From positions 1 to 29,366 of IMG/VR virus record IMGVR_UViG_3300042301_000259: a DNA stretch of 29,366 bases. One strand, given 5' to 3'. The position numbers and the translations under genes were made by a program. This document shows positions 4,117 through 26,742 of the stretch, one piece after another. The DNA is from a virus. Below the pieces are notes generated by a model. It ran no database searches, was not told the origin of the DNA, and saw only the letters and a list, made by a program, of their open reading frames with translations. How positions within the stretch are numbered: position 1 is the first letter of the stretch; every line of letters starts with the position of its first letter.

Positions 4117-4121
4117 GGTTG

Positions 4122-11325: not shown

Positions 11326-11356
11326 ACCTATATTAATTTAGCTTTGTCAAATGTTC
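11326..11356 (-). promoter_or_regulatory. Late promoter motif, copy 1 (portal-lysis unit)
   Basis: On the minus strand GAACA (11352-11356), 17 nt, then AATATAGGT (11326-11334) abutting the GTG start. A terminator ends two bases upstream (11359), so one unit closes and the next opens here. Confidence 0.7.
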
Positions 11357-11358
11357 AT

Positions 11359-11386
11359 AAAAAAAGCCCCACCATGTGGCAGGGCT
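11359..11386 (-). terminator. Intrinsic terminator after the tail-tube gene
   Basis: On the minus strand a hairpin with AGCCC/GGGCT base and an inner CAC/GTG stem around an ATG loop is followed by seven T residues (11365-11359). It lies 24 bp beyond the stop of the gene at 11410 and directly before a late promoter. Confidence 0.8.
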
Positions 11387-11409
11387 CTAATATAGAGAGG
11401 TAGAATTGC

Positions 11410-11961
11410 TTATATAACTCCGATTGTTTGAAGTGCATTAGCTGTCATATCAATGTTGTAAGCTAAGTAAGGGTTCTCAGCTACCAAAGTAACTGTATAT
11501 TTTGAACCATCCGCTCTAGCTGTACCTGAACCCTCACCTGTAGCAGATAACTGCAAGTATGGGAAGTACCAATATAAGCCATTAGCATCTAAGATGATAG
11601 CTGTTAAGAATTGCTGTCCTGTTCCTAGGATTTTAATAGCACGTGACTTATCAGCATCTCTTCTATGGAATACTAAATTGATTGTTTGAGTTACAAAAGA
11701 GCTACCATTAACTAAGTCAATAGTGCTATCCTCTGTATAGTTGGATGTGTTTCGGCGTACCTCAAATGCTTTGAATAAATCACCACCCGGTTGTAAGGTG
11801 ATACCTGTAATTTGCCAGGCACCTGTACCAACAACTGTAGATGGGTCAGCAGGAGTGATAGAAGCTATCTCATCCTGTGTATTTATCCAAACACCATAGA
11901 TACCACCAATGTTGTTATCGCATGGTTTTACGATAGTCTCTAATGATTGACATGTAGCCAT
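11410..11961 (-). CDS. Putative major tail (tube) protein
   Basis: A 183-aa beta-rich protein of tail-tube size, between the major capsid gene and a strong terminator. It has GIYGVWINTQDEI near the N-terminus, a central FKAFEVRRNTSNYTEDSTID block, FVTQTINLVFHRRD, and a C-terminal GSKYTVTLVAENPYLAYNI. The alternating strands with a TxTINLVF segment fit a tail-tube fold, and its expression should be high. I assign it from size, composition and position. It could instead be a capsid decoration protein. Confidence 0.55.
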   Translation of the reverse strand: MATCQSLETIVKPCDNNIGGIYGVWINTQDEIASITPADPSTVVGTGAWQITGITLQPGGDLFKAFEVRRNTSNYTEDSTIDLVNGSSFVTQTINLVFHRRDADKSRAIKILGTGQQFLTAIILDANGLYWYFPYLQLSATGEGSGTARADGSKYTVTLVAENPYLAYNIDMTANALQTIGVI

Positions 11962-11977
11962 TGTGTTAAGTATTAAA

Positions 11978-11999
11978 GAGCCCCCTTGGTAGAGGGCTC
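11978..11999 (-). terminator. Hairpin between capsid and tail-tube genes, possible partial terminator
   Basis: On the minus strand GAGCCC (11999-11994) pairs with GGGCTC (11983-11978) around a 10-nt loop, followed by TTTAAT. The T run is short, so it probably terminates only partly or protects the capsid mRNA 3' end, allowing the capsid gene to be expressed above its downstream neighbour. Confidence 0.55.
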
Positions 12000-12009
12000 A
12001 TGATTATTA

Positions 12010-12948
12010 TTATGCGTAGAAAACGATTTCTTGAGGATTAACAAAGTTAAATCCTACTTTCATGTTAGCACGTGTACGGATGTACGGCTCAGCTACAGTA
12101 TCAGCTAAGTTAACAGCACGTAGGTCAGAAGAGTCACCCTCAGCATCAAATGCGTAGATAAGGTTGTCTTTCAAAGTCCACACGAATGTGTTGTTTGACA
12201 TACCTGGACATACTACAATCTTAACACCTAAGAAAGTCAAAGACAAATCTTGAGTAATGTATGCTTGAGTGTTACCTGAAGCTACTCCTAATCGGTAGAT
12301 ATTAACCAATTGAGTAGGCATGTACAAACGTAAATCAGCTGTACGTGTAGCAATAGTTGCAGGAAGTAAAGCAAATGCAGTAGACAAAGCAGCCTCTAAT
12401 GCAGTAAAGTTAGCAATTGAACCTGAACCACCATTGATAACTGGAAGTGTTCCTGGAGGAGGAGTCAAACCTGCAGTCAATGCTTTCTCATAACCATCAC
12501 ACAAAGCAAGTGTAGGGTTTAATGAAGTTGTATCACCTTGCCAACGGATAAGCTCGATATCTCCGTTAATTTTGTTAGCCATCTCACCCCAATAGAATGA
12601 CATGAAAGATGCAACAGAGAAATCTCCGTTAGATCCTTTTGACATTTGAAGAGCTAAGAAAGATTGCTCTAAGTCAAACTGACAAATCTGAGCCATTGCA
12701 GAAAGTGCACATACGTCAATTTCTTTAGCATCTAGGTCATCAGATGGTGCAGTAAATGCACAAGTAGATGGTTGTAAGATGTTACCGAAAGTAACACTAG
12801 CTAATTTAGTTTTGTACTTTACTCCTGGCAAAGAACGGTAGTTATCAGCAGTATCCTCAGACAAGTAAGCCTTAGAATAGAATGCCTCAGGGTTAGCTGC
12901 TAATAAAGCAGTTGGGTCAACTTGTAAGTCGAATTTTAATTTACGCAT
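12010..12948 (-). CDS. Major capsid protein
   Basis: A 312-aa protein of HK97-fold size, directly downstream of the protease/scaffold gene. Features are an N-terminal helix (LLAANPEAFYSKAYLSED), a central FDLEQSFLALQMSKGSNGD, the loop ATIATRTADLRLYMP and a C-terminal beta part (NMKVGFNFVNPQEIVFYA), which resemble capsid proteins of Bacteroidota siphophages. The codon use is biased to a few codons, as for a highly expressed gene. It has no leader motif of its own and is expressed from the upstream late promoter. Confidence 0.75.
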   Translation of the reverse strand: MRKLKFDLQVDPTALLAANPEAFYSKAYLSEDTADNYRSLPGVKYKTKLASVTFGNILQPSTCAFTAPSDDLDAKEIDVCALSAMAQICQFDLEQSFLALQMSKGSNGDFSVASFMSFYWGEMANKINGDIELIRWQGDTTSLNPTLALCDGYEKALTAGLTPPPGTLPVINGGSGSIANFTALEAALSTAFALLPATIATRTADLRLYMPTQLVNIYRLGVASGNTQAYITQDLSLTFLGVKIVVCPGMSNNTFVWTLKDNLIYAFDAEGDSSDLRAVNLADTVAEPYIRTRANMKVGFNFVNPQEIVFYA

Positions 12949-12949
12949 T

Positions 12950-13933
12950 TTATTTGTTGTTTATGAATTTGTTTACACTTGAAAATCTTTGATGTGCACT
13001 TAAAGTCACACCCTCACTCATCACCTCTTCCTCTACTTCTACAGATAGAGCCTCTTCCAATTGGTTTTTAAGGTCAGCTATCATAGCAAGTAGAGCATTC
13101 ATTTGCTCATCCATCGCAGGCTTAACAATAGCAAGGATTGCCTCTGCATCAACTACAGGGTCAATTGCCATTGTTGTTTCCTCTGCAGGAACTTCTGCTG
13201 TTACTTCCTCTTCGATAACAGTATCTTCTAGAGCTACTTCCTCAGAAGCCTCTACTTTTTCAACATCTTTTACTTCAACTACTTTACCATCTTTTACGAT
13301 GTAGATTTTTTCGTTGATGATGTGCTCGCCGTCCGGCAACATTAACTCATTCATTTGTGTATTTATTTGGGATTGTTTTTGCTCGTTTAATTTCATGCCT
13401 AAGTACCCCTCAATACTGAAACCTATCTGCTCCTGTGCTACAAGCTCAGCATAGTATTCTTTGTCAGTTACCTGAGCCGTTACCATTAGTGTACCCTCAG
13501 GTACTTCAATACCAAATGATGAGTAAGCTTTGTCCTCTTTTGGGTTATCTACTATCCATGCCTCAAGTACATAGGCAGGAACGGTCTTAGATTGGTCATG
13601 CTCCAGGTTAAATAGGTCTCGGTTGACCATCTGCTGCATGAACTTGCCATGAATTTTCTCTATCTCTTCCTTGCTAAACTTGACATTGTACTCTTCTTTG
13701 CTATCCTCATCAAAGCGATAAATCTCCATAGGTATCAAAGCAGGTGCAGTGATACGGTACTTGAGCTCATCCGAAAAGAATAAAGGCTTAGCTTGAGCAC
13801 TGAATGCCATCCCCTTAACTTTGATTGCAGGAGTAGCTGTAAAAGCTATCTGCTCAATGCCAAGGTCCTCACCATTTTCAGCGTATGCTGGGTCAATGGT
13901 AATCTGATAGGTAGGGATATTGTCTTTTGCCAT
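12950..13933 (-). CDS. Prohead protease/scaffold fusion (XkdF-like, Peptidase_S78_2)
   Basis: A 327-aa protein with an N-terminal protease and a C-terminal scaffold-like part. The protease carries a likely catalytic His in LFNLEHDQSK and Ser in IGFSIEGYLGM, the spacing of XkdF-type S78_2 maturation proteases. Residues from about 190 are acidic and low complexity (VEVKDVEKVEASEEVALED and similar), followed by a helix MDEQMNALLAMIADLKNQLE, as in capsid delta/scaffold domains. It should guide capsid assembly and then cut scaffold and capsid. It opens the capsid unit under a late promoter two bases further from its ATG than in the other copies. Confidence 0.75.
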   Translation of the reverse strand: MAKDNIPTYQITIDPAYAENGEDLGIEQIAFTATPAIKVKGMAFSAQAKPLFFSDELKYRITAPALIPMEIYRFDEDSKEEYNVKFSKEEIEKIHGKFMQQMVNRDLFNLEHDQSKTVPAYVLEAWIVDNPKEDKAYSSFGIEVPEGTLMVTAQVTDKEYYAELVAQEQIGFSIEGYLGMKLNEQKQSQINTQMNELMLPDGEHIINEKIYIVKDGKVVEVKDVEKVEASEEVALEDTVIEEEVTAEVPAEETTMAIDPVVDAEAILAIVKPAMDEQMNALLAMIADLKNQLEEALSVEVEEEVMSEGVTLSAHQRFSSVNKFINNK

Positions 13934-13935
13934 CT

Positions 13936-13965
13936 ACCTATATTAAAAAAAACGTATATTTGTTC
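13936..13965 (-). promoter_or_regulatory. Late promoter motif, copy 2 (capsid unit)
   Basis: On the minus strand GAACA (13961-13965), 16 nt, then AATATAGGT (13936-13944), followed by AG and the ATG at 13933. It is the one copy with a 16-nt spacer and a 2-nt gap to the start. Its -35-like part overlaps the -7 box of the divergent plus-strand promoter. Confidence 0.65.
13955..13962 (+). promoter_or_regulatory. Host-type -7 box for the plus-strand gene pair
   Basis: TATATTTG matches TAnnTTTG exactly and ends 15 bases before the ATG at 13978. The nearest upstream TTG (13927-13929) is 25 nt away, slightly too far, so the -33 box is uncertain. The box shares bases with the -35-like part of the opposing late promoter. 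Confidence 0.45.
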
Positions 13966-13977
13966 AAAAATTATAAC

Positions 13978-14526
13978 ATGATAACTATCTTAAACAAGGA
14001 AATTCCTAACCAAATTGAAGAGCTCAACATTGAGCAATTCGAGGCAATTACTGAAATCAATAACAATCAGGAACTTGACCCCATTGATAAGCACCTCCAG
14101 GTGTTTGCTTACCTTGGCATCCCTGAGTCTGAGTTCTGGGACTATGATGTGGCTGATTTTGTGGGGATGGTAAAAGAATTTAACTCAGCAGAACGCAAAG
14201 AATATCCAACTATTGAGGAGCTTGAGATTGAGGGCTACATCTACAAAGCACAAATGAAGTTAACTGTACGTGATACTAAGATGATTGAGAAAGTAGCACT
14301 AAGAAAAGAGAAAGGATATATCTCTGAGATGTTAGCCATCATGTTCAAACGTGAAGACCTTACACCCACTGAGCACTACACCGATGCACACATCAAGCAG
14401 AAAGCAAAGCTCATCCGTAAATTGAATGCTGGTATCTCTATTCCATACATGATGTTTATTGCACAAAAAATAGGACAACAAGCTAATGATCAAGCTACCC
14501 AAGCAGTGGAGCCAAGTAACGCTTGA
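13978..14526 (+). CDS. Putative assembly chaperone-like protein, first of a paralogous plus-strand pair
   Basis: A 182-aa protein starting MITILNKEIPNQIEEL. Its layout parallels the next gene: a P-x(4)-L-x-x-EQF opening (NIEQFEAITEI), a DVADFVGMVKEF block matching that protein's DVDELAELVNE, then a K-rich strand before an AIMFKRED segment (AILYRQT in the partner). This pair sits beside capsid and tail genes and resembles tail-assembly-chaperone pairs, but I see no decisive motif. The upstream in-frame Met at 13927 would overlap the divergent late promoter, so I chose 13978, just after the promoter. With its partner it is the only gene read on the plus strand. Confidence 0.55.
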   Translation: MITILNKEIPNQIEELNIEQFEAITEINNNQELDPIDKHLQVFAYLGIPESEFWDYDVADFVGMVKEFNSAERKEYPTIEELEIEGYIYKAQMKLTVRDTKMIEKVALRKEKGYISEMLAIMFKREDLTPTEHYTDAHIKQKAKLIRKLNAGISIPYMMFIAQKIGQQANDQATQAVEPSNA

Positions 14527-15226
14527 GCAGTTCATTGAGTTTAGTCAGATAGATAAAGAGCAGGGAGCCTACCACTACAACAGTGAGGCTCTTTCTATTT
14601 TATCGGATGAGCCTATTGATGTCATTGAGGACCTTGACGTGGATGAGTTAGCAGAACTTGTTAACGAGTCTAGATGGTGTACCTCTGAGCCATCCAAAAG
14701 ATACAAGCATGAGGTGTTGGGGATGAAGTTCAAGCCATTCAGCAAGCTAACCCTTTACGAATATATTGACCTTGACTATTTTTTTAGTAATAACTACATC
14801 ATAAATCTTGATAAAGTATGTGCTATCCTGTACCGTCAAACTAAACTAAATGAATGGGGTGATGAAATCATGGAGCCTTATGACTTTGACTGCAACATTA
14901 GAGCTGAGAAATTCCATGACCTACCAATCACCGATGTGTATGGTATTGTTCATGAGTTCCTGAAGTTTAGAGATAACTTTCTCAAGACCTATGAAAACTT
15001 ATTTACCGGTGACCTAGATACTCCACTCACCGATGAAGAGAAAGCTAACATGGACCCTGAAGAAATTAAAGAAATAGAGAAAGAACAGACTCAAGTAAAG
15101 TGGTCATGGGAGCAAACCATCTACGGCTTGACTAATGGGGACATAACAAAGAGTGATAAGATAGGTGTCCTACCACTCGTCTATGTTTTCAATATCTTGT
15201 CTATGAAGAAAGAGTTAGACATCTAA
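14486..15226 (+). CDS. Putative assembly chaperone-like protein, second of the pair
   Basis: A 246-aa protein (MIKLPKQWSQVTLEQFIEF) paralogous to the preceding gene: both have EQF, a DVDELAEL-type block and a CAILYR-type segment. It adds an acidic linker (EEKANMDPEEIKEIEKEQ) and a C-terminal block KWSWEQTIYGLTNGDITKSD. Its ATG lies 41 bp inside the first gene in the +1 frame, and a TAG at 14471 closes the frame upstream, so a programmed frameshift could only occur within 14474-14526, where I see no slippery heptamer. Translational coupling is more likely. It ends 12 bp inside the opposing gene at 15215. Confidence 0.55.
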   Translation: MIKLPKQWSQVTLEQFIEFSQIDKEQGAYHYNSEALSILSDEPIDVIEDLDVDELAELVNESRWCTSEPSKRYKHEVLGMKFKPFSKLTLYEYIDLDYFFSNNYIINLDKVCAILYRQTKLNEWGDEIMEPYDFDCNIRAEKFHDLPITDVYGIVHEFLKFRDNFLKTYENLFTGDLDTPLTDEEKANMDPEEIKEIEKEQTQVKWSWEQTIYGLTNGDITKSDKIGVLPLVYVFNILSMKKELDI

Positions 15227-15785: not shown

Positions 15786-16030
15786 GATATTATTGTTACT
15801 CCTATAGCATCTGCTACATATTCATTAACTACGTTATTGTCAGTACCCCAGGTTGCGAACTGCTCATCAGTCATGGTGTAGTTACCATCCAATAGTCCTA
15901 TACCTTGCTCATCATATAGTTGCCAATAGGTTTGAGCTGTGGTAGCATTAGTTGCGAAGTTAAGTACAAGCACTGACATCTGAGATGCTATGCCTTTTGT
16001 TGGTATGTTAAGTGGTTGTATCTGTATCAT
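15782..16030 (-). CDS. Small virion-associated hypothetical protein
   Basis: An 82-aa protein starting MIQIQPLNIPTKGIA. It is beta-rich at first (MSVLVLNFATNATTAQ, YWQLYDEQG) and ends with TMTDEQFATWGTDNNVV. A slightly earlier Met at 16054 is open, but the ATG at 16030 shares TAATG with the stop of the tail-fibre gene, so I chose that. The fold may be a small tail-fibre-associated or neck domain; I recognise no family by name. Confidence 0.6.
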   Translation of the reverse strand: MIQIQPLNIPTKGIASQMSVLVLNFATNATTAQTYWQLYDEQGIGLLDGNYTMTDEQFATWGTDNNVVNEYVADAIGVTIIS

Positions 16031-17169
16031 TATAGTGATGTTATTGTTTCCCAAGCTGATGCAGTTCTAACACATAGCTTGTTTAATGTTGTATCATATA
16101 CCACTAAGCCTGCAGCAGGTGAAGCTATTGCATTCTTTTGTACTGTTGTCATTCGTGGAGGTAGGAATCCTTTTGTAGTTGAATCAATGGCTAATTGTGC
16201 GGATGCATAATATGTACTTGCACCAAAAGTTATGTTTGTTGTATCTCTATCACGTACATAATAAATATCCCCTGTCCTATTAAATAATTTTAAATTATAA
16301 TAAGTTCCATCATTAAAAACAGAGTGCCAAAAAAAAGTTGAATTACCAACTCTCCAAGTAAAACCAATAGAACCACCCGTTCCTTGACCATTTGTTCTAG
16401 CCGTAAACCCGTTCACAGTATTAGTTCCCGAAGTGGCATTAGCCATGTGTCCAATGGCTTCCGCAGTAGTTGTAGTCATCAAAGTACCAACACTATTGTT
16501 TTGCAATGTGCCTTGTATTCCTATTGCACCGTATGCAATCCCCGTGCTACTTAATGAACCTAATAAAACTAAAGCCCTTGTTCCCGTGTCCGTTGTGGAT
16601 ATACCATTTAATAAAATTGAATAGGTACTTGTTGGCGTACTATTTGTAAATTGTGCTTGACCTGTAATTTGCCCACTAACCCTCGCAGTGCCATTCACAT
16701 CTAACTTAAAGCCTGCATTAGTTGTAGTACCTATCCCTACATTTCCATTAGAAAAGAAACGGCTTGATGTAGTGCCTGCTATGGTTAAATCAAACCCACC
16801 TTGAGTTAATGTTCTCGCAGCAGTCAGTGTGCCATTTGCAGTGTAGATGTTACTGCCTGATACAGTCAAATCTCCACTACCTAGTATTGAGCTACCATTG
16901 ATTGTCTTAATGTTGGTAGCACTAACAAGAGTATCCTGCTTAGCATTCAAGGCACTCTGTAAGTCTGTTTGACTAGATAGTGTTCCTGTGATACTCCCCC
17001 AGGTTGCACCACCCGATGCTGCTGCAATTATCTGAGCACCTGTAATGGCTGTGTTAACAGGTAAGCCACCCACTATAGAAGTACATTCTAGTAAGTCAGT
17101 AGGCTGTAGGTTTCCGGTATGCGGTGTGAGGATAGGTCTCCAATCTCCCCACCAATTTGGTGCACTCAT
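16030..17169 (-). CDS. Tail fibre / receptor-binding protein
   Basis: A 379-aa fibre-like protein. Residues 56-82 contain the fibre repeat WGSITGTLSSQTDLQSALNA; a TINGSSILGSGDLTV strand follows (89-103); residues 143-164 hold NVGIGTTT and KLDVNGTARV, the trimeric-fibre motif common in Bacteroidota phages and surface proteins. Residues 165-320 are Gly/Thr/Asn-rich and look like a receptor-binding part. The end (GFLPPRMTTVQKNAI, GLVVYDTTLNKLCV) is a conserved C-terminal cap. There is no S74 autocleaving chaperone. The middle of the gene uses codons less like its neighbours, as expected for an exchanged host-range segment. It heads a late unit. Confidence 0.75.
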   Translation of the reverse strand: MSAPNWWGDWRPILTPHTGNLQPTDLLECTSIVGGLPVNTAITGAQIIAAASGGATWGSITGTLSSQTDLQSALNAKQDTLVSATNIKTINGSSILGSGDLTVSGSNIYTANGTLTAARTLTQGGFDLTIAGTTSSRFFSNGNVGIGTTTNAGFKLDVNGTARVSGQITGQAQFTNSTPTSTYSILLNGISTTDTGTRALVLLGSLSSTGIAYGAIGIQGTLQNNSVGTLMTTTTAEAIGHMANATSGTNTVNGFTARTNGQGTGGSIGFTWRVGNSTFFWHSVFNDGTYYNLKLFNRTGDIYYVRDRDTTNITFGASTYYASAQLAIDSTTKGFLPPRMTTVQKNAIASPAAGLVVYDTTLNKLCVRTASAWETITSL

Positions 17170-17200
17170 ACCTATATTAGTTTAAGCCTCCGAAATGTTT
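17170..17200 (-). promoter_or_regulatory. Late promoter motif, copy 3 (tail-fibre unit)
   Basis: On the minus strand AAACA (17196-17200), 17 nt, then AATATAGGT (17170-17178) abutting the ATG at 17169. The -35-like part overlaps the stop codon of the tail terminator gene. Confidence 0.7.
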
Positions 17201-17636
17201 ATTGTAAAGGCACTGCACAGTTAGTCCAATCATTAACCGTTAATGTTATGTTCATAACATAGCCTGCAGCGTAGTCAAGTAGATCGTTGTTCAAAGGTTG
17301 GAAGTTAGGTATACCAATCACATCAAAGCTATAGTCATTGCTATAGGTGAAGTAAACATAAAGGTCATTGAGTATCTGCTGTGTATCGCTTAGGATTGTT
17401 ATGATGTTAGCCCTATCTTTTTGAATAATATCAAAGCAGTAGATGTCAAAGTTAAACTCTGAGGTGTTATCTGCAGGGTTAACAGTTACCGGCACAATAA
17501 AAACAATGGGGTACTTCTCATCCTGAGTAGCGAAGTTAAATAGCTGTTCCTTAAAGTCACTACCCACCTTTTTAACCTGGAGGTGATTGTTGTAGAACTG
17601 CTCAATGTGGTCGATGATTGCTTGTAGTGAGTTCAT
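17199..17636 (-). CDS. Putative tail terminator/completion protein
   Basis: A 145-aa alpha/beta protein: an N-terminal helix (SLQAIIDHIEQFYNN), strands KYPIVFIVPVTVNP and FNFDIYCFDII, a helix with RANIITILSDTQQILNDLY, and terminal strands (YVMNITLTVNDWTN). This strand-helix order and size match tail terminators of siphophages, which cap the tail tube and join the head. It overlaps the tape measure gene by TAATG at 17636. The similarity is structural and by position; no motif is diagnostic. Confidence 0.5.
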   Translation of the reverse strand: MNSLQAIIDHIEQFYNNHLQVKKVGSDFKEQLFNFATQDEKYPIVFIVPVTVNPADNTSEFNFDIYCFDIIQKDRANIITILSDTQQILNDLYVYFTYSNDYSFDVIGIPNFQPLNNDLLDYAAGYVMNITLTVNDWTNCAVPLQ

Positions 17637-19831
17637 TAGAGTTCAGCGTTTTTGTTAATCTTAGTTATCTTATTTTGTACGTTGGTTATTTGTGTCTCAG
17701 ATACTACAGCTGTGACGGTCATAGAGCTGTTATTGCTATCACCTCCTGCACTCATCACATTGCCTGTGTTAGCTGAGCCAAACAACTGAGCTGCTTGAGG
17801 TACTTGCTGTGCTACGTTAGCACCACCACCCTCAGCACCACCGCCTCCACCTCCTGATGTTGGAGTACCACCTGAGGTAAGTATCTGCTTAGCCTTGGCT
17901 ATGTTGGTAGCAATCTGGATGATACCTGTAGCGAACTGAGCAATACCTGCAGCACCTGCTGATACTGAGTTCAACGGGTTAGCTTGTGATGCAGCAACTA
18001 ATGAAGAGATAGCCTTGGCTGTATCAATACCAATCTGTATCAATGCATTGGCCTTATTGAACTTCTCTAGTTTCTTTTGGTCCTTGATGAATGCACCACC
18101 TACCTCATTAATACCATTAGCTATATCGGATGCTAGCTGTAGCCTTGCATCTCTTTCTTTTTGTGCGTTCTCAATAGATGTTTTCCTAGCATCATCCTCA
18201 ATCTTTTGCTTATCATCTTTCAGCTTTTCAGCAAGAGCTAACTGTAAAGCAGCATTACCCTCTGCTAGTTTATAGTCCTCTTCATACTTAAGCTGTAGTG
18301 CTTGAAATTTTCTTTGGTCCTCAGTGAGCTCTGCATCTGCCAATGTCTTAGCTAACGTTTGCTGTTGCTTCAGCTTAGCATCTGCTCTCTTCTGATTTTC
18401 TGCCTCCTCCTGTTTATTGTATAATTCAGTTAACGTTTTCTTTTGCTCCTCAGTTAGTGTGGTATCTGCCAACGTTTGAGCTCGTAGCTTGTCATACTTA
18501 GCCTTAGTCATGGCTAGCTCTTTAGCTGTTCCCTCCTCCATCATCTGTAGCTGTAAATCAGCTATAATCTCATTACCTTTCTTGAGGTTATCTGCCTCAG
18601 TCTTAGCCTTGTCCTCTGCAAGCTTATTGATCTCCTGCTGCTGTTGAGCTAGATACATCTCATTAAACTTAGCTTTCTCTGCTGCTGTTTTATTGGCATC
18701 ATTTTTAAGGTCATTCATTAACCTAGCATACTTCTCATTTACTATAGCTATCTCCCTCTCATTAACATCCTTGATTTGTGATAGCTCAAAGTCTCTCAAT
18801 GTCCTAGCGTTATCCAATCTATTCTTAGCTGCTTGCTTAGCTCTCTCCCTAGCTTTCTCTGCTGCTGCTGCTGCCTCATCTCCTGCTTTCTTATCTGCCT
18901 CTTTTTGGTCTTGTATCTCCTGAGCCTTGATGCGTTTACGTTCATTGACTCCTGTTTGGATGATTTTACTTTCAGCCTCAATCTGCTTTCTTAACTCTTG
19001 TCGTTTCTTAGTAGCCTCTTCACCCTCTTGATGTCTCATTGCCTCAAGGGCTTTCTTAGCTGCAGTCTTTCGCTTAATAGCCTCTTTCTCCTGTGCTCTT
19101 GATTTGTCTAGCTCAAGCTGAGTGGTATCCTTACCGGATATCTTAGCCATGGCAATCTCCTGGTCATAGCTCTCACCTATTTTCTCACTACGTTTCTTTG
19201 AACTTTCTGCTACTTTCTCATTGGCCTTAGCCATCTTTTCAGCGTTCTCATCTGCTGCATAACTACTCAATCCTAGCCAATCACTCAAAGACTTGAGGCC
19301 CTCAATCAATGCATTGATAGGTATCATTAAAAAGTCAAGTACTTTCTGTAGCACCCCTATCTTGTGTAGGAATATCACAATGGCTGCCACAATAGCAATG
19401 ATAACAGCTATTAATAAAAAGATAGGGTTAGCTAGAATGGTAGCACCTAATGAAACAAATGCACTACCAACAGTCATGATAACGGATGTCAGTGATTTGA
19501 ATGCACCACCAATAGCCTTAGGGTCAATGTTACCTAGAGTACTTTTGAATACATTAGCCTTTTGACTAGCCTCCTCAAAGTCAAGACTAAGCAAGCTATC
19601 CTTAATACCTCCTAAGCTGTTGGATACCTGCTCAAACTTGGAACCTGTCGCAAAGGTATTCACTGCCTCATTGGCATCTGCTAGTTGGTCCTTAAGTTCT
19701 CCTGCCTTTGCCGCTAACCTGGCAATATCCTCGGGGTCAGTTGCCTCAGCAATAGCACCCTTTAATGATTTTAATTCCGCCTTAATGGCGCCAATGCCGC
19801 CGAGCTTTAATGGTATTTCTACTTCATTCAT
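17636..19831 (-). CDS. Tail tape measure protein
   Basis: A 731-aa protein. Residues 1-100 are helical, with Ala/Lys/Asp-rich coiled coil (LKDQLADANEAVNTF). Residues 116-156 are strongly hydrophobic (NPIFLLIAVIIAIVAAIVIF), the membrane-active part typical of tape measures. Residues 190-560 are a long Lys/Glu/Ala/Gln coiled coil with repeats of the type KYD.L......T.EQK. The C-terminal quarter has a Gly-rich stretch (TSGGGGGGAEGGG) and VTAVVSETQITNVQ. At the usual 0.15 nm per residue the tail would be about 110 nm, an estimate that supports a siphovirus. It lies next to the distal tail proteins. Confidence 0.88.
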   Translation of the reverse strand: MNEVEIPLKLGGIGAIKAELKSLKGAIAEATDPEDIARLAAKAGELKDQLADANEAVNTFATGSKFEQVSNSLGGIKDSLLSLDFEEASQKANVFKSTLGNIDPKAIGGAFKSLTSVIMTVGSAFVSLGATILANPIFLLIAVIIAIVAAIVIFLHKIGVLQKVLDFLMIPINALIEGLKSLSDWLGLSSYAADENAEKMAKANEKVAESSKKRSEKIGESYDQEIAMAKISGKDTTQLELDKSRAQEKEAIKRKTAAKKALEAMRHQEGEEATKKRQELRKQIEAESKIIQTGVNERKRIKAQEIQDQKEADKKAGDEAAAAAEKARERAKQAAKNRLDNARTLRDFELSQIKDVNEREIAIVNEKYARLMNDLKNDANKTAAEKAKFNEMYLAQQQQEINKLAEDKAKTEADNLKKGNEIIADLQLQMMEEGTAKELAMTKAKYDKLRAQTLADTTLTEEQKKTLTELYNKQEEAENQKRADAKLKQQQTLAKTLADAELTEDQRKFQALQLKYEEDYKLAEGNAALQLALAEKLKDDKQKIEDDARKTSIENAQKERDARLQLASDIANGINEVGGAFIKDQKKLEKFNKANALIQIGIDTAKAISSLVAASQANPLNSVSAGAAGIAQFATGIIQIATNIAKAKQILTSGGTPTSGGGGGGAEGGGANVAQQVPQAAQLFGSANTGNVMSAGGDSNNSSMTVTAVVSETQITNVQNKITKINKNAEL

Positions 19832-19832
19832 G

Positions 19833-22679
19833 TTATGGCTTGTAATATCTTATCTCAAGTGTGGTATAGTTAAGGTAGTTATCTACATACCCCACACCTA
19901 TCTGAGTTGTTAATATATAAATGCTATTGTTACTTGGGATGTACTGAGCACTGATCACCCCGTCATAGTTTACGTTGTTAATCATGACAGTCATCTCACT
20001 TGATAGGATGGTTCCTATCTCCCAATTTTGTATGAACCCCTCATACTCACCTTGGTTATTTCTAACCCATAGGATATCTCCAAAGCTACCCTCTTTCACA
20101 TCGGCTACAGGGTCACTTGTTCCTGATTGTGTGAGCAATGCTGTGTACTTGTAATAAGATGGGTCAACAGGTATGCCATTCATTCTACCTCTTACCACGA
20201 GGTTGTCAGTTACTATACCATCATCCTCAACGGAGTAGCCCTCAGTAGCCACCATGACTCTGAGTCCACCCGGTACAATGTTACCCCTGTTGACTACTTC
20301 ACCAACTATACCACCACCTGTAAGCACGTTGCTGTTCATGCTCTTTGTCTTAACAATAGTGCTATTAGCTACCTGCTGAATTCCTGAGATGTTAGGTAGT
20401 CCAACACCTGGTGTTCCGAATGGGTTAATGAATGGCATGAAGTTCACCTCACTATCTATACTGATGAGCTCTACCTGTGTGAGCTGATTAGCATTAGCAT
20501 TGTAATCAATAACCTTGTTAATGTTCCACCATGAGTTATCAATGCGTATCTTATCATTGAGCTCTAATGGTTGAATGTCTGACTCCTTGAGATTAAAGAA
20601 TGCAGTCAACATCTTACCACTATTAATCTGACCCATGGTACGTCTCCAATACCTATTGTAAAGGTTGTTATCGGTTAGGCTTAATGGTTGGTAGTAGTAG
20701 AATGAACACACTGAGAAGTTCAAATCCCAAGTAGGGTTGAGTGGGTTATCGAAGTGACCTACATACGGGTAAGTAGTAACACCTGTCATACCCGTTGTGC
20801 CATAGTCATAGATGTGGTATGGTGAACAGGTACTCAATCCTATCTCAGCTGTACTGTCGTACATGATACGCAAGTTAGTCTTAGGTGCTTGTCCTGCAAT
20901 CATTCCAACGTATGCACCAAATGGGGTACGGATGATTGGTGTAGGACCAAAGAGAACAGGCTTAGTGGTTACATCCTTTACATACTCATTGTCAAAGACT
21001 ACCTCTGCTTGTCCATAGATCTGATTGGTGGCATCCGTATACGTTTGGTTAGGGCTATCCTTATCAGGTGTATAGGTGAGTATTACTTTCTTACTTGTTA
21101 GCTCAGGTAGGAATGACAATGACTGCTCTTTATCCTTGGCTAGCTTGTAGGTCCAATCTACCTCTTTACCTGCATCATAGTAATCATCCCTATGGATTAG
21201 GTTAAGTTGATTAGGCTGAGTCTTATCTACATCTGCATAGAGATTGTACATGTTGAAGATAGCCTTAACAAAGTCATTCTGCTTAATCTTTTTAGGCACG
21301 TAGTCATTCACATCAATAGTACCACCGATGGCCACAATGTTATTGGATGGGGTAATGCTGATATCAATGCTAGTCACTACATACTGCAGCTTGATTTGAC
21401 CTGAGGCACAAGGAGTTCCTGTAGCTGAGCCTATTCTCCATTGAGGGTTTAGGGCTGTTTGATTGGGTTGTGCATATGCCTCCTTAGGACATCTTACTGC
21501 TAGCCTACCTTGAGATAACTGTGGTAAGTTCTGTGCAGTCAAAGCCATAGTACATATAGCTGTTTGACTCAAGATAGTTGTGGTACCATTAGGTATTGAA
21601 GCAGGACTCTGAACTGCATAGGTAACAGCAGGGCTACCATTTAATGGTGCAGGATTGGTGTATAGGTTTACAGCAGATGATACCACACCATTGCGAGTGA
21701 GGTACAGCTGTGGCCTGTAGAATGTTGGAGTGGCTTGAGTAGTGGTTCCTGAGTACAGCGTAACACCTGATGTATTAACTAGCCTCAGCTCATACTGTAT
21801 GGTGATGTTGTAGTCATACTGCTGTGAGTTGTTACTGCTGATGTTGAATGGGGTGCTGTACACACCCGTAACAGGATTGTAAATGTTTTGAGGGTCCTCA
21901 GTCTCAGTCCATGCTGTGATTGTTTGAGGCAATGACATCTCACTATTACCTGCCCAAAACTGACCGGTAAAAGTAGTTGGTCCTGCATTAGCCTTGACAG
22001 TGTAATCTGCATAGTCGAAGTTATCCGTATCCCCATTGTAAGGAATGACTAGCTTGTCAAACTTATCATCTACTAAATCAGGCCAACTGTATGTAAACCC
22101 TGCACCTTGGAATATACGGTCAAAGTAAGTCTTAGCAAAGATGGCAGGCTTGAACTCCTGAGTGCTGTAGAACGCATCACCACTACCAGGGAGGAAGTAC
22201 TTGAAGCCATCCACCTCAGTGTTGGTAAACCTGTTCACCACATTGAACGCATCGTATGTATGGTTGAGGTCACTGAAATCTATATCGGTTAGCTCAAGGT
22301 TATTGATGGCTGTAAAGAAATCTGCTTTGCTTTCTTTAATCAATACCTCATACTCCACATGCTCCTCATACTGCTCAGTGAGCTGTACCTTTTTAATGGC
22401 TGTGAGTTGTAGGCTAGCATTCTCCATGACAGGTATTCCATCCTGAATAACTGAGCAGGTAGTCACTGCATTGATGTCAAAGGTACCGGCTTGGATGTTA
22501 ACATCGTAGTAGTGGTTAAGTAGGTTATTGTTATTCTTACTGCCTACCAATACAATGGTCTTAGAAAAGTTACCTTTCCTTTGACTTATATCTCTGATGT
22601 CTCCTACCTGAAATGTCAAAGGGAATGAAGTACCCTCCTTAACATCAAGGTAGCCTGTTGCTAGTTGTATCCTAACCAT
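19833..22679 (-). CDS. Large distal tail protein
   Basis: A 948-aa, mostly beta protein upstream of the tape measure. The N-terminus (VRIQLATGYLDVKEGTSFPL) and DISQRKGNFSKTIVLVGSKN resemble the opening of large tail proteins of Bacteroidota siphophages, where a Dit/Tal-like hub is fused to other modules. The middle has carbohydrate-binding or Ig-like strands and LNLIHRDDYYDAGKEVDWTY. The C-terminal 150 residues contain a VVRGRMNGIPVDPSYYKY segment and a small terminal domain. Its role in a tail tip or host recognition is inferred from position and size. It overlaps the next tail gene by 8 bp. Confidence 0.6.
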   Translation of the reverse strand: MVRIQLATGYLDVKEGTSFPLTFQVGDIRDISQRKGNFSKTIVLVGSKNNNNLLNHYYDVNIQAGTFDINAVTTCSVIQDGIPVMENASLQLTAIKKVQLTEQYEEHVEYEVLIKESKADFFTAINNLELTDIDFSDLNHTYDAFNVVNRFTNTEVDGFKYFLPGSGDAFYSTQEFKPAIFAKTYFDRIFQGAGFTYSWPDLVDDKFDKLVIPYNGDTDNFDYADYTVKANAGPTTFTGQFWAGNSEMSLPQTITAWTETEDPQNIYNPVTGVYSTPFNISSNNSQQYDYNITIQYELRLVNTSGVTLYSGTTTQATPTFYRPQLYLTRNGVVSSAVNLYTNPAPLNGSPAVTYAVQSPASIPNGTTTILSQTAICTMALTAQNLPQLSQGRLAVRCPKEAYAQPNQTALNPQWRIGSATGTPCASGQIKLQYVVTSIDISITPSNNIVAIGGTIDVNDYVPKKIKQNDFVKAIFNMYNLYADVDKTQPNQLNLIHRDDYYDAGKEVDWTYKLAKDKEQSLSFLPELTSKKVILTYTPDKDSPNQTYTDATNQIYGQAEVVFDNEYVKDVTTKPVLFGPTPIIRTPFGAYVGMIAGQAPKTNLRIMYDSTAEIGLSTCSPYHIYDYGTTGMTGVTTYPYVGHFDNPLNPTWDLNFSVCSFYYYQPLSLTDNNLYNRYWRRTMGQINSGKMLTAFFNLKESDIQPLELNDKIRIDNSWWNINKVIDYNANANQLTQVELISIDSEVNFMPFINPFGTPGVGLPNISGIQQVANSTIVKTKSMNSNVLTGGGIVGEVVNRGNIVPGGLRVMVATEGYSVEDDGIVTDNLVVRGRMNGIPVDPSYYKYTALLTQSGTSDPVADVKEGSFGDILWVRNNQGEYEGFIQNWEIGTILSSEMTVMINNVNYDGVISAQYIPSNNSIYILTTQIGVGYVDNYLNYTTLEIRYYKP

Positions 22680-24138
22680 TGACCATGTCGTTATTAGCTA
22701 GCTTAATAGTAATGCTTTGCTTGATTAAGTTCTTATTCCGTTGCTTGTAGTACTCATAGGTAGAGTTCACTATGTTGCAGCTGATATACTCAGTGCTTGC
22801 TGGGATGTCACAGCTCTCATCGTAGTTACTTATCTTAAAGTAAGTGTATGGTGAGCTGATTAACTCAGTAAAGTAGGTAGCCATCTCCTGAGTCATCCAA
22901 TCAGTATTCAGGTCAATAGTTTCCTCCACTGTTACATAGCTGTTGATGTACCCTCTATCTATTAGGTCATAGGTCCACTCAGTGCTAGCTATCTTGCCGA
23001 GCACATCCATGTTGTACTGTTCACGCTGAACGTTACCCCTTTGGTATGCTCTACCTGTGAATGCAAAGCTACCCCATGAGCCATAGCGGTCTAGGAATAT
23101 AATGCTGTACTCCTGCATCTGTGTTCTGCGATCTATGTTCACTCGGTAGGACTGTGTTACCTGTGAGCCATTGTGCTCATAGTAGTACTCATACCACTGA
23201 GTGGTAGGCTTAATCAATGGCAGTGAGCCTGAGACTACAGTCAAGGTGCCTGCGTTGTTAGGACCTACTGCGTTACCTGTTATGTGGTCAGTGGCTCCAA
23301 CACTCTTTCTCAACACATCACCCCCATCATTGGTAAATACTATCCTGTGCGTTCCTCCAGGTATAGCACCATAGACTGCGTTCATCCATAGGTCCTGAGA
23401 TAAGGTAGCGTAGAAGTTGGTAGCAGGAATGGAGGTAAGGAACTTGTCAGTGTTACTGCTTAAGTCATAGTTATTCTCATCCCATGATGGCCATTGAGTC
23501 CAAGGAAGTGCACCATTGAATACAAAATTATTCAGGTCATTGATGATATTGTACGTAGTAGTTTTTCTCCCATCTGCATAGGTGATGGCCACATCCTTGT
23601 TAGCATTCGTTATGGAGCTCCATAGGAAGTTAATCACAATGTATGTACTGGTAGCTACTAGCACAGTGTACAGTCCGTCAAAGTTAGCATTGGCTGTACC
23701 TGCTCCTGTTTGAGTTAAGACTATCTGATCACCCACCACAAATGAGTTAGTGCCATTCAGCTGTACTTTACCTGCATAGGGTGCAGTCACATACTGAGTC
23801 ATGGCTGAGGTGAATGTGGTAGTAGTTAGATATTCCTCACCTACCTTAAGGTCATACTTGTAATGGCTATTAGGTGCATCGTACACTGTGGTGTTGGTAG
23901 GGAATAGGTCATAGCTTACATAGGCTTGAAGTAGCTTAGTTAAATCTATCTCACCATACCCTGTAGAGTAAACAGGTAGCACCCTGTACTCAGCTATCTG
24001 AGTGGCAGTGCCTGACTCATACACCTCAAAGATATACTTAAACCCTGCTAGGTTTTTGTTGGTGCTGTCGTAGATATACTTGACAGGGTTGTATGCTGGA
24101 GTGAGTCGCTGAGGTGCAGCCTTTAATGTCATTGCCAT
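22672..24138 (-). CDS. Tail/baseplate protein
   Basis: A 488-aa protein, beta-rich and aromatic, heading a late transcription unit. The N-terminus MAMTLKAAPQRLTPAYNPVK, then FKYIFEVYESGTATQIAEY, is characteristic of tail proteins next to terminase in Bacteroidota siphophages, and GRAYQRGNVQREQYNMDV is another marker segment. The short repeat VGDQIVLTQTGAGTANANFD resembles a small beta-barrel insertion. Two Met codons (1 and 3) are near the promoter motif, and the second would suit a start shifted downstream. Function is inferred from context. Confidence 0.55.
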   Translation of the reverse strand: MAMTLKAAPQRLTPAYNPVKYIYDSTNKNLAGFKYIFEVYESGTATQIAEYRVLPVYSTGYGEIDLTKLLQAYVSYDLFPTNTTVYDAPNSHYKYDLKVGEEYLTTTTFTSAMTQYVTAPYAGKVQLNGTNSFVVGDQIVLTQTGAGTANANFDGLYTVLVATSTYIVINFLWSSITNANKDVAITYADGRKTTTYNIINDLNNFVFNGALPWTQWPSWDENNYDLSSNTDKFLTSIPATNFYATLSQDLWMNAVYGAIPGGTHRIVFTNDGGDVLRKSVGATDHITGNAVGPNNAGTLTVVSGSLPLIKPTTQWYEYYYEHNGSQVTQSYRVNIDRRTQMQEYSIIFLDRYGSWGSFAFTGRAYQRGNVQREQYNMDVLGKIASTEWTYDLIDRGYINSYVTVEETIDLNTDWMTQEMATYFTELISSPYTYFKISNYDESCDIPASTEYISCNIVNSTYEYYKQRNKNLIKQSITIKLANNDMVNG

Positions 24139-24169
24139 ACCTATATTATTCTATGCAGGCAAAGTGTTT
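24139..24169 (-). promoter_or_regulatory. Late promoter motif, copy 4 (tail unit)
   Basis: On the minus strand AAACA (24165-24169), 17 nt, then AATATAGGT (24139-24147) abutting the ATG at 24138. It fills the 31-bp gap after the large terminase gene. Confidence 0.7.
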
Positions 24170-25321
24170 CTAAAATGCGTAGTAGCTATCATCCGTATAG
24201 TACTCCTGTCGGATGTGAGTAGTGGCATACCTGATGGCATCCATGGCATCATCCCACATCTTGACCGGCTCGTCAGTAATCATGTCCCCTACTTTTTTCC
24301 ACTTGTAATTCTCATATTCTTTCTTGATTGCCTTATCATCTTGGCATAGCACCCCGAATGTCTTGATATTGTCAATCCCTTTCTTTACCACCTTGTTTGC
24401 GTTCTGCACGTCATACCCTGCATTGTTGAGCTCAGCAATAATCTCAGGCCTTGCATAGTCTGCTACTATGGTCACAGTCTTCTCTACGTTGAAGCTCTGC
24501 ATCTTGTCAATCAGCATTGGTGTAGTTAGGTAGCTTTCATATATCACAGGCTCAATGTAGATGTCATTGTCACACCAATAGACTCGCATGAGTGCAGTGG
24601 GGTGATTGTATCCAAAGTCTAAGCCATAGACGTAGTTGACAAACCTAGCAGGCCGATGAGGTATAAATGACCAATTGCTGTAGATGTTACTCTTGCTGAT
24701 TGCTTTCTCACCTAGGGCATAGATTTGATACAGTGCCTCATCCGTTCTCTTTAAGTCCTCTATCTGAGTCCTGATACTCTGAGGTAGGAATGGGTTATCT
24801 TTGTACGTTGACTTGATGAGTATGCTTTCCTCCTGTGGTAGATCATACAGCCATGAGGTTGACTCACTTGGGTTGTAGTCAAAGATTAGCTTAGACTCAG
24901 TCCTCATGTTCAGCTGAGTGAAGTCATCGAAGTACAGCTCATTGGCTTCGTTACACCATGCTATGTCTCTTTTCCTACCCCTTATCTTCTGCTCATCATC
25001 CACACTAAAGAACTCCACTATGCTACCATTAGGGAACGTGTAGATGTGCTCACTCTTGTTGTGGTCCTCCACTGAATAGATATTGAGTTCCTTGAGTATT
25101 TCAATGAAGTCTCTTAGCACTGTAGCCCTCAAAGCAGGGAATGTCTTACGGATGATACTTACTACCTTGTTGTTGTTCTGCAGGCAGTAGATGATAACTA
25201 ACTGACAAAGGCTGTAAGTCTTAGATGAACGGGAGCCTCCCTCATTAATCACAAACCTAATGCCCTGGTCATTGAGTGCCTCGTAGTTTTTCTCAAAGAT
25301 TACTGTGCTCTTTATCTCCAT
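24170..25321 (-). CDS. Terminase large subunit
   Basis: A 383-aa packaging motor of the PBSX/Terminase_3 type. The ATPase has Walker A EGGSRSSKTYS (27-37), adenine-side RKTFPALRATVLRDF (58-72) and Walker B DIAWCNEANE (119-128, catalytic E). The nuclease domain has D235 in YGLDFGYNHPTAL, D288 in VADYARPEI and D358/D361 in DDAMDAIRYA, an RNase H-like set. It cuts concatemers and drives DNA through the portal. It sits directly after the small subunit and a 55-aa gene. Its start overlaps the 55-aa gene by 29 bp. Confidence 0.92.
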   Translation of the reverse strand: MEIKSTVIFEKNYEALNDQGIRFVINEGGSRSSKTYSLCQLVIIYCLQNNNKVVSIIRKTFPALRATVLRDFIEILKELNIYSVEDHNKSEHIYTFPNGSIVEFFSVDDEQKIRGRKRDIAWCNEANELYFDDFTQLNMRTESKLIFDYNPSESTSWLYDLPQEESILIKSTYKDNPFLPQSIRTQIEDLKRTDEALYQIYALGEKAISKSNIYSNWSFIPHRPARFVNYVYGLDFGYNHPTALMRVYWCDNDIYIEPVIYESYLTTPMLIDKMQSFNVEKTVTIVADYARPEIIAELNNAGYDVQNANKVVKKGIDNIKTFGVLCQDDKAIKKEYENYKWKKVGDMITDEPVKMWDDAMDAIRYATTHIRQEYYTDDSYYAF

Positions 25322-25460
25322 TAGCTATTTGGTATGCATTCATTAACATAGCCATCTGCCTGCCATCGCTAGCTACTGCTCTTCTATCTATCCTAACCTG
25401 TACCCCTTTCATCCTGTAGATGTAATCCTCTACCACTGCACACATGAACTCAATCTGCAT
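25293..25460 (-). CDS. Small hypothetical protein between terminase subunits
   Basis: A 55-aa frame, MQIEFMCAVVEDYIYRMKG, then VQVRIDRRAVASDGRQMAM and a polar end. It covers the otherwise empty 128-bp gap between the terminase genes and overlaps both (11 bp and 29 bp), as other genes here do. The residues look coding, with a helical hydrophobic start and basic middle. Function unknown; it may help the packaging complex. Confidence 0.6.
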   Translation of the reverse strand: MQIEFMCAVVEDYIYRMKGVQVRIDRRAVASDGRQMAMLMNAYQIANGDKEHSNL

Positions 25461-25872
25461 CCGGTCTTACAATGGTTACCTTGATGCTGTCTATCTTTTC
25501 TCCCTTGGTGGTAGTGTCCACACGTTCGGTTAGGTTGTTTAATCTCTGAGTAATGGATGCATTGTACTGCCCGGTCATACCTCCCTCGATTTGGTCCATT
25601 CGAATTGCCTCCTCTATACGCGAGCAGATTGTGGCATATTCAGAATATCTATCTCCCTTGTTACAAAAATAATCATTCACTGTTTGCCCTTTCTCTGCAG
25701 CAAAAGTCCTGAAACCCACTTGAGTAAGCGGTCTTTCTAATGGCACTGCTGTAGCCTCTCCTGTCTTTGTGGATAGGGAATAGGAGTACCTTGGGTTTTC
25801 TTTACACCAACGTTTGTAGGCCTCGAATAAGTCCCACATTGCTTCAGGTGTTTCTATGTGCTTAGGCCTCAT
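25450..25872 (-). CDS. Terminase small subunit
   Basis: A 140-aa protein beginning MRPKHIETPEAMWDLFEAYK. Residues PLTQVGFRTFAAEKGQTVND form a helix-turn-helix. YATICSRIEEAIRMDQIEGG and MTGQYNASITQRLNNLTERV are typical of small terminase subunits (gp3/Terminase_6-like), where the second helps oligomer formation. It should recognise phage DNA for packaging and pass it to the large subunit. It precedes the large subunit and overlaps the previous small gene by 11 bp. Confidence 0.8.
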   Translation of the reverse strand: MRPKHIETPEAMWDLFEAYKRWCKENPRYSYSLSTKTGEATAVPLERPLTQVGFRTFAAEKGQTVNDYFCNKGDRYSEYATICSRIEEAIRMDQIEGGMTGQYNASITQRLNNLTERVDTTTKGEKIDSIKVTIVRPDAD

Positions 25873-26065
25873 CTGACTCAGGTTCTACCCCTTTGAATTT
25901 CTTACTCTTAGGCTCTACCTCTTCAAAGATATGGCCTATACCTTTCTCAATCCAGAACTCAGCCTCATTAGCTGTCTCTTCAGCAATGGTGAAAGATACC
26001 TCTCTCCCATTTAGATATACGGTAATGTACTTACCGATAAATTCACTCTTTACTTTCTTTGTCAT
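25862..26065 (-). CDS. Small acidic hypothetical protein
   Basis: A 67-aa protein starting MTKKVKSEFIGKYITVYLNG, followed by REVSFTIAEETANEAEFWIE, which is a beta-hairpin and helix, ending in a charged tail (KKFKGVEPESDEA). An earlier Met at 26119 would extend it into the membrane protein gene; I prefer 26065, which overlaps that gene's stop by 23 bp. A similar small protein often precedes small terminase in related phages, but I cannot name it. Confidence 0.6.
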   Translation of the reverse strand: MTKKVKSEFIGKYITVYLNGREVSFTIAEETANEAEFWIEKGIGHIFEEVEPKSKKFKGVEPESDEA

Positions 26066-26219
26066 ATTCGTATTCTTGTGTAAATAACCATGCATAGTAT
26101 AATACAATCCATAGGCCAAAAGCTTTCATTGCCATTGCAGTGTTCTCCCTGACTAGAAAGAATGCACCTGTTAATGCAGTGAATGTAGCAATGATGCTAA
26201 TTATTTGAGAAAGTCTCAT
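26043..26219 (-). CDS. 58-residue membrane protein, first late gene
   Basis: A short protein with two transmembrane segments: SQIISIIATFTALTGAFFLV (4-23) and AFGLWIVLYYAWLF (33-46), then an acidic tail (EYEYDKESKE). Its ATG directly follows late promoter copy 5, within the 3' end of the sigma-factor gene, making it the first gene of the terminase unit. Function unknown; it could be an accessory holin-like protein. Confidence 0.6.
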   Translation of the reverse strand: MRLSQIISIIATFTALTGAFFLVRENTAMAMKAFGLWIVLYYAWLFTQEYEYDKESKE

Positions 26220-26742
26220 ACCTATATTGTAGATTGCGTAAATTTTGTTTAATTTCAGTTATCAGGTAGTGAGCTGAGGTAACCGGTATCCCAAAGTACT
26301 TAGCCATCCCTCTTGCTGTGGTGTATCCTTTGTCAATGTATGCCTCAAATACTATCCTGTGCACGTTATCACTTATTTGTGATCTATATATTTCAATCAT
26401 CCCCTTGTGAGTGCTGTATATCTTATCCTCAAGTATCTTAGCCTGTAGGTCCTGCTCATCATCTGCCTCATCATTGGGCTCATACTCCATGGATGTGACC
26501 CTGTCATCCCTATGGCTCAATGATGTGTTCCATAGTATCTGATATTTGATGGTGTTTAGCAGGTAACTCTTCACCTGGTCTTCTGTATCAGCATCCTCAT
26601 TGATGGTTAACACATGCAGGTAACTGTTATTAATTACCGTATCTGCCTCAATCTTACTCCCTAGCTTAGTTAGAAAGTACAGCGTGTAAGCCCTTACCTC
26701 ATGGTAATGGTTATTGATGTACTTGTCTAAGAGCTTTTTCAT
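26197..26742 (-). CDS. ECF-like phage sigma factor (putative late-gene regulator)
   Basis: A 181-aa protein with the two-domain shape of an ECF sigma factor. Region 2: DKYINNHYHEVRAYTLYFL (6-24) and EADTVINNSYLHVLTI (32-47), then EDQVKSYLLNTIKYQILW (54-71). Region 4: a helix-turn-helix around YTTARGMAKYFGIPVTSAHYL (140-160). It has an acidic linker between them. It would recruit host RNA polymerase to phage promoters. I chose 26742 (MKKLLDKYIN) because the upstream part of the longer frame overlaps a neighbour and lacks sigma character. It ends an early run of small genes and is immediately followed by a late promoter copy. Low sequence similarity makes this a good but not certain assignment. 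Confidence 0.65.
   Translation of the reverse strand: MKKLLDKYINNHYHEVRAYTLYFLTKLGSKIEADTVINNSYLHVLTINEDADTEDQVKSYLLNTIKYQILWNTSLSHRDDRVTSMEYEPNDEADDEQDLQAKILEDKIYSTHKGMIEIYRSQISDNVHRIVFEAYIDKGYTTARGMAKYFGIPVTSAHYLITEIKQNLRNLQYRYETFSNN
26220..26250 (-). promoter_or_regulatory. Late promoter motif, copy 5 (terminase unit), inside the sigma-factor gene
   Basis: On the minus strand AAACA (26246-26250), 17 nt, then AATATAGGT (26220-26228) abutting the ATG at 26219. It lies in the last codons of the sigma-factor gene, where it also encodes part of LQYRYE, so the sequence serves two roles. Confidence 0.65.

Follow-up and report, generated by a model that had tools for sequence, protein, structure and literature searches.

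The phage record IMGVR_UViG_3300042301_000259 of IMG/VR, considered here over its full 29,366 bases (the window), carries on its minus strand five copies of the two-box motif RAACA-N16/17-AATATAGGT, each located 0-2 nucleotides (nt) 5' of the first gene of a late unit, and this motif is almost certainly the late promoter of a phage family. Our reading relies on the conservation of the motif, its concerted change in one lineage, its variable distance to the start codon, the synonymous constraint where it overlaps a gene, a terminator at the fifth site and the linkage to a gene encoding a protein that resembles sigma factors of the extracytoplasmic function (ECF) type. Together these findings strongly support the proposal of a preliminary description, made from the sequence alone, that the motif is a late promoter with an ECF-like AAC element.

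In the mechanism that we propose, RAACA would act as an upstream element of the -35 type and AATATA with the next three bases as a downstream element of the -10 or -7 type, the 16-18 bp between them fitting a two-box promoter. ECF-type promoters combine an AAC-type upstream element with a spacing of 16-18 bp, and AACA with a spacer of 16-18 is what the sites contain. Host core RNA polymerase carrying a phage ECF-like sigma factor (encoded at 26197-26742) would most likely read the five sites, one of which would open each late unit, and the sigma-like gene, last of the early block, would itself be expressed from host-type sigma-A promoters. With the element in contact with the start codon, late messages would lack a leader or have one no longer than about 3 nt. 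Taken as a whole, this account (a late promoter, a phage ECF-like sigma as its reader and a very short leader or none) seems to us reasonably probable, and it would provide a clear switch to late expression in a large family of uncultivated phages whose regulation was not known before.

Copies in the window and among relatives

The proposed late promoter sites are the following.

26220-26250, minus strand: site 1, AAACA-N17-AATATAGGT, abutting the ATG at 26219 and lying within the 3' end of the sigma-like open reading frame (ORF)
24139-24169, minus strand: site 2, AAACA-N17-AATATAGGT, abutting the ATG at 24138 and occupying the gap 3' of the terminase stop codon
17170-17200, minus strand: site 3, AAACA-N17-AATATAGGT, abutting the ATG at 17169, its 5' bases overlapping the preceding stop codon
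13936-13965, minus strand: site 4, GAACA-N16-AATATAGGT, followed after 2 nt by the ATG at 13933 and overlapping head to head with a host-type plus-strand promoter
11326-11356, minus strand: site 5, GAACA-N17-AATATAGGT, abutting the GTG at 11325

The preliminary description had reported these five copies beside the late-unit first genes, had seen no other by eye and had judged chance very unlikely to produce them, and the search bears it out on each point: the bipartite pattern occurs five times and the plus strand of the window holds no copy of RAACA-N16/17-AATATAGGT. Indeed, when the window was simulated 1000 times with a first-order Markov model, the bipartite motif occurred on average 0.008 times and at most once, against five copies in the window, so that the equal frequency in simulated sequence that was to count against it is not seen; the bare 9-mer had a mean of 0.56 copies and a maximum of 5. 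The weight-matrix search of the window and of related phage genomes that had been suggested was also carried out, with a matrix trained on relatives only and the window loci left out. It gave the five sites 24.3-29.3 bits and the next best window position 2.9, and the motif recurs in the relatives. A chance origin is ruled out by the simulations, the matrix scores and this conservation.

A homologue of the protein encoded at 26197-26742 was found at 42 IMG/VR loci, a number brought to 233 by a scan with its alignment, and the family counts at least 561 terminase loci in IMG/VR. In 22 related whole records the exact motif is present 2-5 times per record, on the coding strand save for one opposite-strand stray in one record, and a reversed control pattern had zero matches in the same records. 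The same five genes carry the motif in nearly all relatives sampled. Furthermore, when IMG/VR was scanned with the motif and ATG alone, 120 stretches were retrieved, 111 of which encode proteins of the window phage's family, the remaining 9 being compatible with chance; these motif-selected loci (L005-L124) are biased and were left out wherever unbiased counts matter. Among 73 terminase-anchored loci, picked without use of the motif, AACA-N17-AATATA is kept and the final three bases vary by lineage (GGT, AGC, TAT, AGA, GTA and others). No site lies directly 3' of the terminase at 30 of these 73 loci, most of which belong to a clade with an intervening gene or an extended frame and have the site further on. 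Across 167 distinct orthologous sites, for which a core match at 8/9 positions was required for inclusion, AATATAG is invariant and AACA nearly so, with a spacer of 17 in 141 sites, 16 in 19 and 18 in 7. The family-wide invariant part is AACA-N16-18-AATATA, mostly with N17; GGT is specific to the window's lineage, and the three bases adjoining the start codon are the least conserved part of the core.

In a divergent phage (L249/G023) all five sites are altered, reading AATATAAGT three times, AATATAAAC at site 4 (with GTG directly after) and AATATACTT at site 5, with AACA, AATATA, spacing and position retained. At site 1 this change also puts Lys (AAG) in place of Arg (AGG), at a position where Arg is otherwise conserved among close members of the sigma-like family. 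This lineage, with GGT replaced at five sites, offers a natural pair for matching sigma residues to promoter bases. L249 (JAIXRY010000011.1) is a 29.6 kb contig in a bacterial metagenome-assembled genome (MAG) and a complete-looking divergent family member with an altered late promoter, perhaps a free phage that was co-binned and not a prophage. It was the only contig returned by a scan of the genome collection with the terminase, a result too weak to name a host, and a scan of the same collection with the alignment of the sigma-like protein had no match. The sigma gene and the capsid gene have no detectable similarity to those of any cultured phage, and we found no description of the motif or of the phage family in the literature.

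A candidate reader encoded beside the first site

The gene immediately preceding the first late promoter encodes the proposed reader of the five sites.

26197-26742, minus strand: predicted ECF-like sigma factor of 181 amino acids (aa), final gene of the early block

Its true start is at 26742 and not at the mechanically called 26817 (181 aa, not 206), since in relatives the 25 additional codons are interrupted by stops; the conservation of that stretch is due to its overlap with the preceding gene. An AlphaFold2 model built with 23 relatives, 45-92% identical to the 181-aa protein, has a mean predicted local distance difference test score (pLDDT) of 78 and consists of two helical domains, with helices at 2-27, 33-46 and 54-83 in one and 95-122, 126-136, 143-150 and 154-180 in the other; the predicted template modelling score (pTM) of 0.39 makes the placement of the two domains relative to each other unreliable. 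Such a size and architecture, about 180 aa in two helical domains corresponding to sigma2 and sigma4, are those of ECF factors. When the better model was compared with the PDB using Foldseek, the top 49 matches were nearly all sigma factors (best 9n9q_C, E 5e-4), among them SigL, SigH, AlgU and sigma-E; ECF factors dominate and a few matches are PhyR/NepR sigma-mimic entries. Against the BFVD viral models, phage sigma-70/ECF proteins dominate the named matches, and the fold match to the GAP52 sigma is weak (E 0.033). An earlier model from a shallower alignment had a weaker fold match and gave the same picture. The protein is thus probably a divergent ECF-like sigma factor, missed by sequence searches and brought out by fold comparison, and binding of core RNA polymerase and initiation are its predicted role.

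The sigma-like gene lies inside the fetched terminase flank in 66 of the 73 terminase-anchored loci, and several of the other 7 have under about 2 kb of sequence 5' of the terminase, which may have cut the gene off. On the strength of this linkage, the 181-aa protein probably reads the motif. A different reader, either a host alternative (ECF) sigma or the host holoenzyme with a phage activator, would leave the sigma-like protein to do something else, and we consider it unlikely. Bacteroidota do possess many ECF sigma factors with motifs of their own (PMC9723704, PMC7366714), and the phage protein has moderate support from fold comparison. However, the motif and the sigma-like gene co-occur across the family, the gene stands directly 5' of the first late promoter, and the five sites changed jointly in one lineage while the early boxes stayed host-form, which suggests a phage-borne reader.

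Constraint on the sites and the start of transcription

Site 1 falls within the final codons of the sigma-like gene, where the DNA itself appears to be what is preserved. Synonymous diversity, measured over 73 distinct sequences, amounts to 0.018 for the six codons of the motif, 0.51 for the four spacer codons that could be scored and 0.41 for the remainder of the gene, codons 172-175 being its most frozen run of four scorable codons; synonymous choice is fixed across the two boxes and unconstrained between them. Motif and start codon are separated by 0, 1, 2 or 11 nt in close relatives and by 7-16 nt in some distant clades, and in the 11-nt clade the motif is intact though it lies inside an extended terminase reading frame. 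In one clade (L227, L163, L160 and similar loci), at the start of the homologue of the 488-aa gene, the large reading frame on the terminase side is extended through the promoter, with AATATAGGT read as Asn-Ile-Gly, and ends at the next start (TAATG), the promoter being intact. The motif is directional and without dyad symmetry and is present at unit starts only, internal late genes such as that of the capsid being devoid of it. A transcription signal also adjoins site 5.

11359-11388, minus strand: intrinsic terminator (hairpin and T run) ending 2 nt 5' of site 5, conserved in relatives

With this terminator directly upstream of site 5 and with the genes upstream of site 4 lying on the opposite strand, there is little room for another promoter at either place. 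Promoters of host type were found elsewhere in the window.

6660-6689, minus strand: host-type (sigma-A-like) early promoter, TTTG-N18-TATCTTTG, about 27 nt 5' of the first early ATG (6632)
1132-1164, minus strand: host-type promoter, TTTG...TATATTTG, about 23 nt 5' of an ERF-like gene (ATG 1108)
13955-13962, plus strand: host-type -7 box of the plus-strand genes, TATATTTG, inside the -35/spacer region of site 4 and about 15 nt 5' of a gene pair

These boxes are conserved in relatives; those of the early genes stand about 20-27 nt 5' of the ATG, so that the early mRNAs would have ordinary leaders. The TAnnTTTG -7 box with TTTG near -33 that marks Bacteroidota sigma-A promoters is found at the early genes and not at the five late sites, no TAnnTTTG box being present near sites 1, 2, 3 and 5 on the coding strand; a host-type promoter as the identity of the late motif is ruled out by the absence of these boxes. 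At 13936-13980, late site 4 and the plus-strand host-type promoter overlap head to head (GAACAAATATA in one direction, TATATTTGTTC in the other), an overlap kept in nearly all relatives, and the two promoters may exclude each other.

Repeated conserved sites at unit starts would also be expected of an operator, bound by a phage repressor or activator and overlapping conventional host promoters. The strict direction of the motif, its lack of dyad symmetry, its promoter-like spacing of 16-18 bp and the missing TAnnTTTG boxes near sites 1, 2, 3 and 5 make this very improbable. The preliminary description had left open a translational role, in which the motif would be an initiation element, an unusual ribosome-binding sequence, at selected late genes. 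Most copies do stand directly at a start codon; however, the distance to it is not fixed (0, 1, 2, 11 or more nt), the far-off AACA box is constrained at fixed spacing, internal late genes including that of the capsid lack the motif, the bases adjoining the start codon vary more than the rest of the core (GGT differs by lineage), and site 5 has a terminator immediately before it, so that this role is now even harder to sustain than an operator. Least probable of all is a promoter for a single-subunit RNA polymerase of T7 or mitochondrial type, or for a phage multisubunit enzyme, starting in GGT or at the next A: AATATAGGT and its variant AATATAAGT resemble TATAGGG-type and yeast mitochondrial initiators, but no RNA polymerase or subunit is recognisable among the predicted window genes, the larger proteins either have tail, terminase, portal or helicase families as their matches or have none, and an AACA box 17 nt upstream is ill-suited to a compact T7-type promoter.

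Returning to the late promoter read by a phage sigma, the position of its start site can be approached from the distances to the start codon. In 181 contexts of the unbiased set, AATATA precedes the start codon by 3 nt in 130, by 4-5 nt in 11 and by 14 nt in 20, with a few longer; a distance below 3 nt was seen in just 3 of the 181, at least one of which is plainly unrelated. At site 5 the start codon alternates between ATG (21) and GTG (13), the N-terminus that follows is strongly conserved, and nearly all sequences have their second in-frame ATG at codon 34; site 4 offers no other in-frame start codon, ATG or otherwise, before codon 23, and at site 2 an ATG is found at the third codon in part of the family only. 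Rescue of a transcription start within the gene by later start codons was considered and rejected, none being usable at site 4, nor with ATG at site 5. The start near codon 2 that standard distances had suggested is therefore not borne out, given the start codons 3 nt after AATATA, the conserved N-termini and the lack of a usable later start at two genes. A wall at 3 nt would be expected if the RNA began on the start codon or up to 3 nt 5' of it, and together with the conserved N-termini that lack a later start it favours a first transcribed base on the A of ATG or immediately 5' of it. With this A as +1, AATATA would occupy -9 to -4 and AACA -30 to -27, which centres the former on the -7 region usual in Bacteroidota. 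The alternation at site 5, the conserved N-termini and the distances at site 4 all indicate translation from the codon adjoining the promoter box, as leaderless expression implies; together with the conserved terminator upstream of site 5, the absence of usable downstream starts points to leaderless or nearly leaderless late mRNAs, and a leader of at most 3 nt is likely.

Several observations weigh against parts of this account. Many of the compared sequences are closely related and are not independent observations. None of 22 members of the sigma-like family matched sigma-family Pfam profiles, and a profile search of PDB sequences matched no sigma chain to the 181-aa protein, whose assignment is that of a predicted fold (mean pLDDT 78, pTM 0.39) with Foldseek E-values near 1e-3 to 1e-2. 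The geometry proposed is 1-4 nt tighter than those published (PMC9723704, PMC4281155), the sigma-A box of F. psychrophilum being at -12 to -5 (PMC9723704), and with the published geometries of phiEco32 and F. psychrophilum transcription would begin some 1-4 nt into the gene. Only a minority of Bacteroidota mRNAs are leaderless, 3.7-5.5% (PMC7366714, PMC9723704): leaders under 10 nt make up 3.7% in B. thetaiotaomicron, and 5.5% are leaderless in F. psychrophilum. Some clades would have a leader of 7-16 nt, hence leaderless expression is not obligatory.

The further proposal that a dedicated, highly divergent sigma produces mRNAs starting exactly at AUG, with all late units translated by leaderless initiation throughout the family, is accordingly put forward tentatively, its chances in our estimate falling a little short of even. 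Leaderless late transcription would be the most interesting part of the account and is its least proven one. If true, the downstream box would be nearer to the start site than in known sigma factors, and a leaderless late programme would operate in a phylum that does without Shine-Dalgarno use and has few leaderless genes.

Genome layout and comparison with known systems

The late genes run from 26219 to 6770 on the minus strand and encode the small and large terminase, tail proteins, a protease-like protein, the probable capsid, portal, holin and endolysin. The early block appears to extend from 6632 to the window start and, given a circular molecule, to continue from 29299 to 26197. The first genes of the late units are the following.

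26043-26219, minus strand: unit 1, small protein of 58 aa, probably membrane-located; then the small and large terminase
22672-24138, minus strand: unit 2, 488 aa; then the tape measure gene (17636-19831)
16030-17169, minus strand: unit 3, 379 aa, tail-fibre-like by eye
12950-13933, minus strand: unit 4, protease-like; then the probable major capsid gene (12010-12948), without the motif
10975-11325, minus strand: unit 5, 116 aa; then the portal, holin and endolysin genes

Between late units, at 13978-15226 on the plus strand, lie two genes (182 and 246 aa) on the opposite strand that are conserved family-wide and have no Pfam or PHROG match. Upstream of a VirE-like helicase/primase gene (1801-4116), TTATCGTCAT is repeated at 4134-4143, 4155-4164 and 4228-4237 within 4114-4237 on the minus strand. 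In relatives, a host-type -7-like box ends 4-6 nt before the ATG of the VirE-like gene, and the mRNA of this gene, transcribed from a host-type promoter, may be almost leaderless too. The presence of DUF3127 and of host-type TAnnTTTG promoters suggests that the host is probably a member of the Bacteroidota.

The closest known system is that of phiEco32, with, by analogy, the same logic. In the phiEco32, SU10 and 7-11 phages, the ECF sigma gp36 reads middle and late promoters of sequence tAATGTATAtA (PMC4281155, PMC4331800), and in phiEco32 the motif lies 6-8 nt upstream of the transcription start (PMC4281155). As in that system, an ECF-like sigma of the phage would be made ahead of the late genes, its gene lying in the early/middle block, a short, highly conserved motif of low copy number precedes the structural units, and the early promoters are of host type. 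However, the phiEco32 motif is a single block where the window phage has two boxes, the downstream one touches the start codon here with a predicted loss of the leader, the host is probably a member of the Bacteroidota, and the parallel with gp36 concerns the timing and the predicted role of the sigma.

The survey of leaderless (TA-led) genes, which calls them by a box adjoining the start codon (PMC3160421), provides a second parallel, in which a downstream box located a few nt 5' of the start codon leaves no or a minimal leader. Those are scattered chromosomal genes served by a housekeeping sigma, whereas every late unit and an apparently dedicated factor are concerned here, and the box of the window phage is a few nt nearer to the start codon. 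Promoters of the Bacteroidota sigma-A (sigma-ABfr), of the form TTTG / TAnnTTTG (PMC7366714, PMC9723704), are used by the early genes of the window phage and share with the late motif two boxes and a downstream box centred near -7, but neither TTTG nor TAnnTTTG is present in the late motif, whose spacer is almost constant and which lacks a leader of 20-27 nt. In phiKZ the late promoter TATG overlaps the start site, and the late motif of AR9 contains AACA (PMC4666361, PMC5312081); their readers are multisubunit RNA polymerases encoded by the phages, a type of enzyme not recognised among the window proteins, and AACA in AR9 stands 6 nt before the initiator element instead of 17 nt as here.

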